A stretch of DNA of 64,000 bases from Caulobacter sp. (GTDB lineage Bacteria; Pseudomonadota; Alphaproteobacteria; Caulobacterales; Caulobacteraceae), in the NCBI GenBank assembly GCA_030680355.1, contig JAUXVF010000025.1, positions 62,001 to 126,000 of the forward strand, in the 5' to 3' direction. Below, piece by piece: positions 21,591-22,711 of the stretch. The position numbers and the translations under genes are program-made. The first letter of the stretch is position 1, and each line of letters starts with the position of its first letter. Below the pieces are notes generated by a model. That model was not told the DNA's origin. It worked only from the letters and a program-made list of their open reading frames with translations, and made no database searches.

Positions 21591-21618
21591 GCGCGCGGCG
21601 AGCGCACAGCTTGAAAAC

Positions 21619-21652
21619 AAAAAGGCCGCCCGGTTGCCCGGACGGCCTTTTT
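21619..21652. terminator. Bidirectional intrinsic terminator between the ABC operon and rpsU
   Basis: A-rich tract, GGCCGCCCGG stem, TTGC loop, CCGGACGGCC stem, then TTTTT. One C/A mismatch interrupts the stem. The A tract on one side and T tract on the other allow function for both converging transcripts. Confidence 0.9.
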
Positions 21653-21674: not shown

Positions 21675-21911
21675 CTAACGGCCGGCGGGCTTCTTCGGGG
21701 CGGCGATCAGGCCCTCGCGCTGCATGCGCTTGCGGGCCAGTTTGCGAGCGCGCCGGACGGCCTCGGCCTTTTGACGGGCGCGCTTCTCCGAAGGCTTCTC
21801 GTAGGCCACGTGCCGCTTCATTTCGCGGAACGAGCCTTCGCGTTGCATCTTCTTTTTCAGGGCTTTCAGCGCCTGGTCGACATTGTTGTCGCGGACGAAA
21901 ATCTGAACCAG
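21675..21911 (-). CDS. rpsU: 30S ribosomal protein S21, apparent CTG start
   Basis: The frame encodes a 78-residue S21: (M)[19 protein letters not shown]..., [20 protein letters not shown] and ...[16 protein letters not shown]. The residue before VQIF is encoded by CTG (21911-21909). AAAGGAG lies 8 bases upstream, the right place for that codon. Going upstream in frame there is no ATG, GTG or TTG before an in-frame TGA at 21959-21957, and the first internal ATG is codon 22. S21 is essential for initiation on many mRNAs, so a weak CTG start could be regulatory; a sequencing error is the alternative. The gene is divergent from the COQ9 gene. Confidence 0.9.
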
Positions 21912-22078
21912 GGGACTCTCTCCTTTGAACGCCCGCGCTAGCCGTGCGGCGGGCGGTCAAAAATTAAAATTGGTTTTGCCCAGGGAGAAGGCCTCCCGTG
22001 GCGAGGCGCGCGAGATAGCAGAGGCGAACGGGCTTGTCTATCGGCGACGGCGCCGGAAGGTCGGTGTAATGTGGCGTC

Positions 22079-22711
22079 ATGACCGCACCCGACGACTGGG
22101 CCGTCCGCGCTGAACAGCAGGTTCTGGACGAGGCCCTCACGCTGATCCCCGCCCGGGGCTGGAGCCGGACCATGACTCTGGCCGCCGGCAAGGCGGCCGG
22201 TTTGTCGGCCGGCGAATGCGACCTGCTGTTGCCCAACGGCCCGCGCGACCTGGCCGCGCTGCTCTCGCGCCGGCATGACGCCGCGGCCCTGGCGGCGCTG
22301 CCCGACCCCGCCGCCCTGAAGATTCGCGAGCGCATCCGCGCCGCCGTGGTCGCCCGGCTCGACGCCGCCCAGGCCGACCGCGAGGCCGTGCGCCGCTGGG
22401 CCGGCTTCCTGGCCCTGCCGACCAACCTGCCGCTGGCCCTGCGGCTGGTCTGGGACAGCGCTGACGGCCTTTGGCGCTGGGCCGGCGACACAGCCACCGA
22501 CGAGAACCACTATTCCAAACGGGCGATCCTGGCCGGGATCCTGATCTCGACCCTGGCGCTGGACCTGCAGGCCGGCCGGGCCGCGGCGCTGGAGGCCCTC
22601 GACGCCCGCATCCAGAACGTCATGGACTTCGAGAAGTGGAAGGCCGGCTTCAAGCCCGCCGACCTGGCGAAGGAACTGGTCGGGGCGCTGGCCAGGGTCC
22701 GCTACGGCTAA
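22079..22711 (+). CDS. COQ9 family ubiquinone biosynthesis protein
   Basis: A 210-residue COQ9-family protein. These are TetR-fold-like lipid-binding proteins that assist the hydroxylation/deamination steps of ubiquinone biosynthesis. Diagnostic parts are the N-terminal helices (ALTLIPARGWSRTMTLAAGKAAGL) and the C-terminal segment DENHYSKRAILAGILISTLALDL. Divergence from rpsU is a common alphaproteobacterial arrangement. It ends 4 bases into the convergent purK gene. Confidence 0.92.
   Translation: MTAPDDWAVRAEQQVLDEALTLIPARGWSRTMTLAAGKAAGLSAGECDLLLPNGPRDLAALLSRRHDAAALAALPDPAALKIRERIRAAVVARLDAAQADREAVRRWAGFLALPTNLPLALRLVWDSADGLWRWAGDTATDENHYSKRAILAGILISTLALDLQAGRAAALEALDARIQNVMDFEKWKAGFKPADLAKELVGALARVRYG

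Follow-up and report, generated by a model that had tools for sequence, protein, structure and literature searches.

Start codon of rpsU in the window

How is translation of rpsU, the gene for ribosomal protein bS21, initiated when the first canonical start codon of its reading frame is codon 22? The question is raised by a 64,000-nucleotide stretch of Caulobacter sp. DNA (the window; contig JAUXVF010000025.1 of assembly GCA_030680355.1, positions 62,001 to 126,000), in which we assigned the following features:

21675..21911, minus strand: rpsU coding sequence (bS21), 78 residues including the start, from translation and family models
21909..21911, minus strand: predicted CTG start codon of rpsU, near-cognate, at a conserved distance from the Shine-Dalgarno
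21677-21675, minus strand: rpsU stop codon TAG, from translation
21920..21926, minus strand: Shine-Dalgarno AAAGGAG of rpsU, from sequence, computed pairing -8.9 kcal/mol
21919-21912, minus strand: spacer between AAAGGAG and CTG, 8 nt
21957..21959, minus strand: in-frame stop TGA upstream of rpsU; the stop-to-stop frame starts at 21956
21912..22078, minus strand: rpsU leader and intergenic region, shared with a COQ9-family gene, from sequence
21613..21652, minus strand: terminator-like GC-rich inverted repeat and T-run 3' of rpsU, from direct sequence reading
22079..22711, plus strand: COQ9-family gene, divergent neighbour of rpsU, above the cut-offs of PF08511 and TIGR02396

The open rpsU frame spans 21956 to 21675, and its first in-frame ATG, GTG or TTG is codon 22, so a canonical start would remove 21 N-terminal residues, including VQIFVRDNN. 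The initial annotation had described AAAGGAG-8-CTG directly before VQIFVRDNN and had noted that ATG, GTG and TTG are absent in frame between the upstream stop (21959) and codon 22; our reading of the open reading frame bears out both points and places the arrangement, whose strand had not been given, on the minus strand. A CTG start is read by the initiator tRNA as fMet.

The encoded protein belongs to the bS21 family, scoring above the curated cut-offs of both PF01165 (65.3 bits, cut-off 27) and TIGR00030 (66.8 bits, cut-off 28.95), and is the single S21 match in this genome, a 3.35-Mb draft of 31 contigs that is 90.87% complete. Its divergent neighbour scores 60.4 bits against PF08511 and 140.5 bits against TIGR02396, both over cut-off, and since the NCBIfam model matched bears the name diverge_rpsU, rpsU seems to be in its usual genomic place. 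The 167-nt intergenic region presumably holds the promoters of both genes; we found no sigma-70-type consensus in 21912..22078, which may nonetheless contain a promoter. A simple terminator scan at 21613..21652 reported one plus-strand site, with a yield no higher than that from shuffles. Rfam searches at a permissive threshold returned 11 matches, every one under its gathering score.

Non-ATG starts across Caulobacteraceae

We searched 199 Caulobacteraceae genomes, found an S21 match in 196, and read the rpsU start in 150 genomes covering all 22 of the 22 sampled genera. The start is CTG in 97, ATC in 34, GTG in 16, TTG in 3 and ATG in none, giving a near-cognate codon (CTG or ATC) in 131 of 150 and GTG or TTG in 19. 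These counts combine a first set of 130 genomes (30 loci and 100 stretches, best matches first, from 15 of the 22 genera), with CTG in 91, ATC in 24, GTG in 15 and ATG in none, and a second set of 21 genomes picked mainly for the seven unread genera. Twenty of the latter were readable, the match in G036 lying at a contig end, and gave ATC 10, CTG 6, TTG 3 and GTG 1. CTG is also the start in the named isolates Brevundimonas diminuta ATCC 11568, B. viscosa, Asticcacaulis aquaticus and Caulobacter sp. 602-2. In alignment A1 one row, L031, falls outside the start region and was left out of account.

A sequencing error or a decayed gene could be suspected behind the CTG, since the window comes from a draft assembly (31 contigs, 90.87% complete). 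The recurrence of CTG in 97 of 150 family genomes and in named isolates refutes this explanation, whose probability we consider negligible. Same-position ATG, found in 0 of 150 Caulobacteraceae genomes, occurs among the Caulobacterales loci read in only one divergent clade outside that family.

In the 91 CTG genomes of the first set, the start CTG is never replaced by another Leu codon; the codon after it varies between GTT, GTC and GTA, and the Leu residue 14 positions later is encoded by five different codons. A CAG, an ATT and one GTC further downstream are likewise invariant in these genomes, so the invariance of CTG alone proves little. A change from CTG to ATC takes two substitutions, with ATG or CTC as the intermediate. 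A hairpin in which CCUGGUU pairs with codons 12-14 in the window (z -2.6) was rejected, its complement being absent by eye in the ATC genomes.

CTG would be among the codons discriminated by IF3 under the rule given in a passage of PMC4611024, and it is conserved in relatives, as in an infC-type near-cognate start; it is not a weak canonical UUG or GUG start of the rpsT type. A leaderless start is ruled out by the conserved Shine-Dalgarno and because CUG, as a section of PMC4611024 has it, is unable to replace AUG on such messages. In C. crescentus, ribosome profiling and LC-MS mapped 74.3% of starts to ATG, 0.7% to CTG and 0.25% to other near-cognate codons, according to the main text of PMC4117421, so such starts work in the species. 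That main text names neither rpsU nor infC, and its Dataset S1 may list rpsU. The literature searched, apart from this dataset and one arXiv paper about genes that favour non-AUG starts, yielded no statement that rpsU starts with CTG or ATC.

Alternative start sites and database annotation

Translation might instead begin on a canonical codon further upstream, on the GTT that follows CTG, or by a frameshift from another frame. An in-frame upstream ATG, GTG or TTG is present in 99 of the 130 Caulobacteraceae stretches, which differ in length; a TTG lies two codons before ATC in 7 of 24 ATC genomes, though with only some 2 nt separating it from the GGAGG core; and protein databases hold N-terminally longer S21 proteins. 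Several observations argue against a start outside the CTG position. Thirty-one of the 130 stretches have no upstream canonical codon, and 28 of these are closed by a stop (24 with CTG or ATC), among them the window, with its stop 16 codons up. Past the Shine-Dalgarno there is no upstream codon conservation, except for GTC or GCC just before ATC. Of six database proteins fetched, four have an extension that includes the Shine-Dalgarno itself, translated as GE, and loci of the Rhizobiales type, with a start one codon later, leave the codon at the CTG position free, so that it can be TAA or TAG.

The database proteins were examined in the best 120 of 8000 matches, 119 of which carry the motif. 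All 119 extend by 5 to 56 residues beyond the position preceding VQI, and none begins at that position, which is Ile in 63, Leu in 53 and Val in 3, as ATC, CTG and GTG would give. The N-terminal extensions of these proteins look false when judged from the sequences, and annotators should be warned that database S21 entries of this group likely carry them. We consider initiation elsewhere very improbable, and the initial proposal that CTG is the rpsU start is strongly supported by its conservation across Caulobacteraceae, with the codon at 21911-21909 as the only plausible candidate.

Strong Shine-Dalgarno sequences across Caulobacterales

The search was extended to four further Caulobacterales families (labelled f2-f5), with an S21 match in 150 of 150 order genomes searched. 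Seventy loci (30 and 40) gave ATC 38, CTG 18, TTG 4, ATA 4, ATT 1 and ATG 5, and nine more gave ATC 6, CTG 1, TTG 1 and ATG 1; the 73 non-ATG loci are thus made up of ATC 44, CTG 19, TTG 5, ATA 4 and ATT 1. Every non-ATG rpsU start seen in the order is one base off ATG and keeps the middle T. Of 195 non-ATG loci in the order, 192 have GGAG 5-11 nt upstream of the start, and the computed Shine-Dalgarno energy is -6.4 kcal/mol or lower in all 195, the strongest being -12.8. A 20-genome tree was built from rpsS regions, taking from 30 loci the 20 whose rpsU start was known; on it, parsimony places six start-codon changes. By comparison, then, the Caulobacterales read here, save one clade, are shown to keep a non-ATG rpsU start together with a strong predicted Shine-Dalgarno. 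One genome, G278, has two S21 genes (L254 and L255), with ATA and ATC starts.

Start codons of infC, rpsS and rpsT

As controls we read infC, rpsS and rpsT in the best 30 of 60 order genomes each, adding 16 further infC loci of 17 fetched. Among the 46 infC loci the start is ATA in 26, ATT in 10, ATC in 8, TTG in 1 and ATG in none; the remaining locus (L488), parsed as GTC, probably starts with ATA one codon earlier. In the window's genome infC starts with ATT. By contrast with these near-cognate codons, rpsS starts with ATG in 29 of 30 loci and GTG in one, and rpsT with ATG in 30 of 30, so a near-cognate start marks infC and rpsU and not two other ribosomal genes. At the level of sequence, rpsU shares the infC start signature, with a strong predicted Shine-Dalgarno alongside.

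The AUU start of infC provides autocontrol of IF3, a feedback by a soluble factor which itself does the discrimination. The suggestion made at the outset, that a poor start codon could give rpsU autoregulation of the infC kind, is partly supported: it fits well with the likeness of the two genes' codons, because infC here starts with ATT, draws on a near-cognate set across the order, and is read beside rpsS and rpsT genes that use ATG. These comparisons do not discriminate between S21-poor ribosomes, IF3 and a plain setting of expression level as the basis of control.

The same likeness would be expected if IF3 itself repressed both near-cognate messages and released them when 30S subunits exceed IF3, S21 being a passenger and not the sensor. 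The near-cognate infC starts of the order, with no ATG in 46 loci and ATT in the window's genome, agree with such control, as does the statement in PMC4611024 that IF3 rejects start codons other than AUG, GUG and UUG. By that same rule, the GTG and TTG rpsU starts of 19 of 150 Caulobacteraceae genomes escape IF3 discrimination. Control by IF3 is further opposed by the clade described below, where rpsU has ATG while infC stays ATC (two genes read), and we judge it unlikely.

A divergent clade with ATG

The ATG starts belong to a divergent clade within f4, which encodes a distinct S21 (MVEIYVRQNNVDQAL...KKKxQNE) marked by VRQNN and QNE. When this protein was searched against 398 Caulobacterales genomes (386 with a match), 31 genomes, all of f4, showed at least 81% identity, and the other matches listed at most 77%. 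The rpsU start is ATG in 31 of 31 (27 by script, three plus G744 added), a count that says nothing on how often ATG arises, the loci having been fetched by similarity to the divergent S21. GGAG is present in 0 of the 27 script-scored loci and was seen in none of the other four; the mean Shine-Dalgarno energy is -3.4 kcal/mol, and 4 of 27 loci reach -4.4.

S21 is ordinarily more conserved than rpsS: when five ATC members of f4 are set against eleven genomes from other families, identity is 0.89 for S21 (first 40 residues) and 0.75 for rpsS. In three ATG genomes compared with the rest the order is reversed, with 0.73 for S21 (first 40 residues) and 0.78 for rpsS. These three form one clade adjoining the f4 ATC members in the 20-genome tree. 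In the two clade loci where infC could be read, a third being cut by its contig end, the gene keeps ATC and its Shine-Dalgarno, so the change concerns rpsU and S21 specifically. The joint state of S21, Shine-Dalgarno and start codon in this clade is a single event in one lineage. A horizontal origin of the divergent S21 finds no support: among 190 class genomes, of which 179 had a match, no relative exceeds 79% identity.

The pairing of a strong Shine-Dalgarno with non-ATG starts, and of a weak one with ATG in this clade, could also reflect static tuning, in which a strong Shine-Dalgarno, perhaps with a strong promoter, is offset by a weak start to fix the S21 dose, without feedback. Shifts of start-codon identity within the weak set are in keeping with such an offset. 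Yet a weaker Shine-Dalgarno with ATG would suffice under less constraint, rpsS and rpsT simply use ATG, and the non-ATG start has been held across five families; we regard static tuning as rather improbable.

Starts elsewhere in the class and phylum

Of 289 alphaproteobacterial genomes, 274 had an S21 match, and we read 70 loci outside Caulobacterales (30 and 40), 68 of them resolved by script. A start one codon later, the Rhizobiales type, is the layout of GTG in 37, TTG in 10 and ATG in 9 of the 68, three GTG rows being ambiguous with a preceding TTG. At the Caulobacterales position the start is ATC in 5, TTG in 3, GTG in 2, ATA in 1 and CTG in 1. Several alphaproteobacterial families beyond Caulobacterales also have near-cognate rpsU starts (ATA, CTG and ATC). 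Where rpsU has ATG outside the order, the Shine-Dalgarno energy is -4.4 kcal/mol or stronger in 13 of 13 loci, named contigs included, and a general trade-off between Shine-Dalgarno and start codon is rejected for the class; because these genes keep their Shine-Dalgarno sequences, the coupling in the divergent clade is no general rule. In other Pseudomonadota, outside the class, 21 of 22 resolved loci have ATG and one has TTG, with two further loci left unresolved by the reading.

A tentative model of S21 feedback

We infer from these comparisons that, through its weak start, rpsU couples S21 production to the stringency of initiation, by way of feedback from S21-poor 30S subunits, IF3 or both, and conservation of this start suggests that cells hold back S21 deliberately. 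The best explanation, which we hold tentatively and favour over IF3 control and static tuning, would be feedback of S21 on its own weak-start, strong-Shine-Dalgarno message. The combination of the two elements would make rpsU translation unusually dependent on 30S stringency. S21 joins the platform late and binds it loosely, next to the Shine-Dalgarno helix. Subunits without S21 would accept the rpsU message relatively better, and S21-replete subunits, together with IF3, would reject it. S21 might thereby limit its own synthesis and be replenished when 30S subunits lack it.

S21 has itself changed in the exceptional clade, and its message there lacks both the strong Shine-Dalgarno and the weak start. 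The change hit S21 and rpsU and spared infC, which tips the balance toward S21, though as one event. A bolder form of S21 feedback, which we think doubtful, is that S21 sets the start-codon stringency of 30S subunits in Caulobacterales and that rpsU is the sensor, dropped for ATG and no Shine-Dalgarno when the clade's S21 changed. To our knowledge, S21 has no known start-codon discriminating role, and our literature search found no paper on an effect of S21 on start-codon stringency. The GTG and TTG rpsU starts of some genera, weak but canonical, count against the feedback reading, as does the ATG found one codon later in 9 of 68 loci from the rest of the class. With near order-wide avoidance of ATG on rpsU and a natural contrast clade, the question is directly testable.

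Comparison with known systems

The regulation of rpsU in E. coli is called unknown in a passage of a 2024 review (PMC10931766), which describes bS21 as essential there; the relevant part of PMC6389949 describes it as non-essential. S21 would clash with the position that the Shine-Dalgarno helix takes in S21-less Thermus ribosomes, as a section of the review PMC4611024 notes.

Enterobacterial rpsT (bS20), as treated in part of PMC10931766, resembles rpsU here in having a lineage-wide weak start (UUG) on the gene for a 30S protein for which autoregulation has been proposed. It differs in that UUG is canonical for IF3, and bS20 autoregulation has been neither confirmed nor refuted according to the same pages, which give AUG as the start of alphaproteobacterial rpsT.

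The closest known systems are bS21 autoregulation in Flavobacterium and infC AUU autocontrol. In Flavobacterium johnsoniae, S21-less ribosomes raise rpsU translation, which established autoregulation of rpsU as described in a portion of PMC9976891; the gene is the same, its Shine-Dalgarno is strong, and S21-less 30S subunits have a natural role. The switch there is sequestration of the anti-Shine-Dalgarno in a platform pocket, said in that portion to be absent in other bacteria, whereas here the start codon is the striking element. The Shine-Dalgarno energies here, computed with a different program, stay short of the value below -13 kcal/mol given in PMC9976891, at -8.9 in the window and -12.8 in the strongest of the 195 non-ATG loci. 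For infC, the likeness lies in a near-cognate, IF3-discriminated start with a good Shine-Dalgarno on the gene for an initiation-linked, 30S-bound protein, and in start codons of the same kind as those of rpsU within Caulobacterales; unlike infC, rpsU also uses CTG, GTG and TTG, and its product is a ribosomal protein where IF3 is a soluble discriminator.
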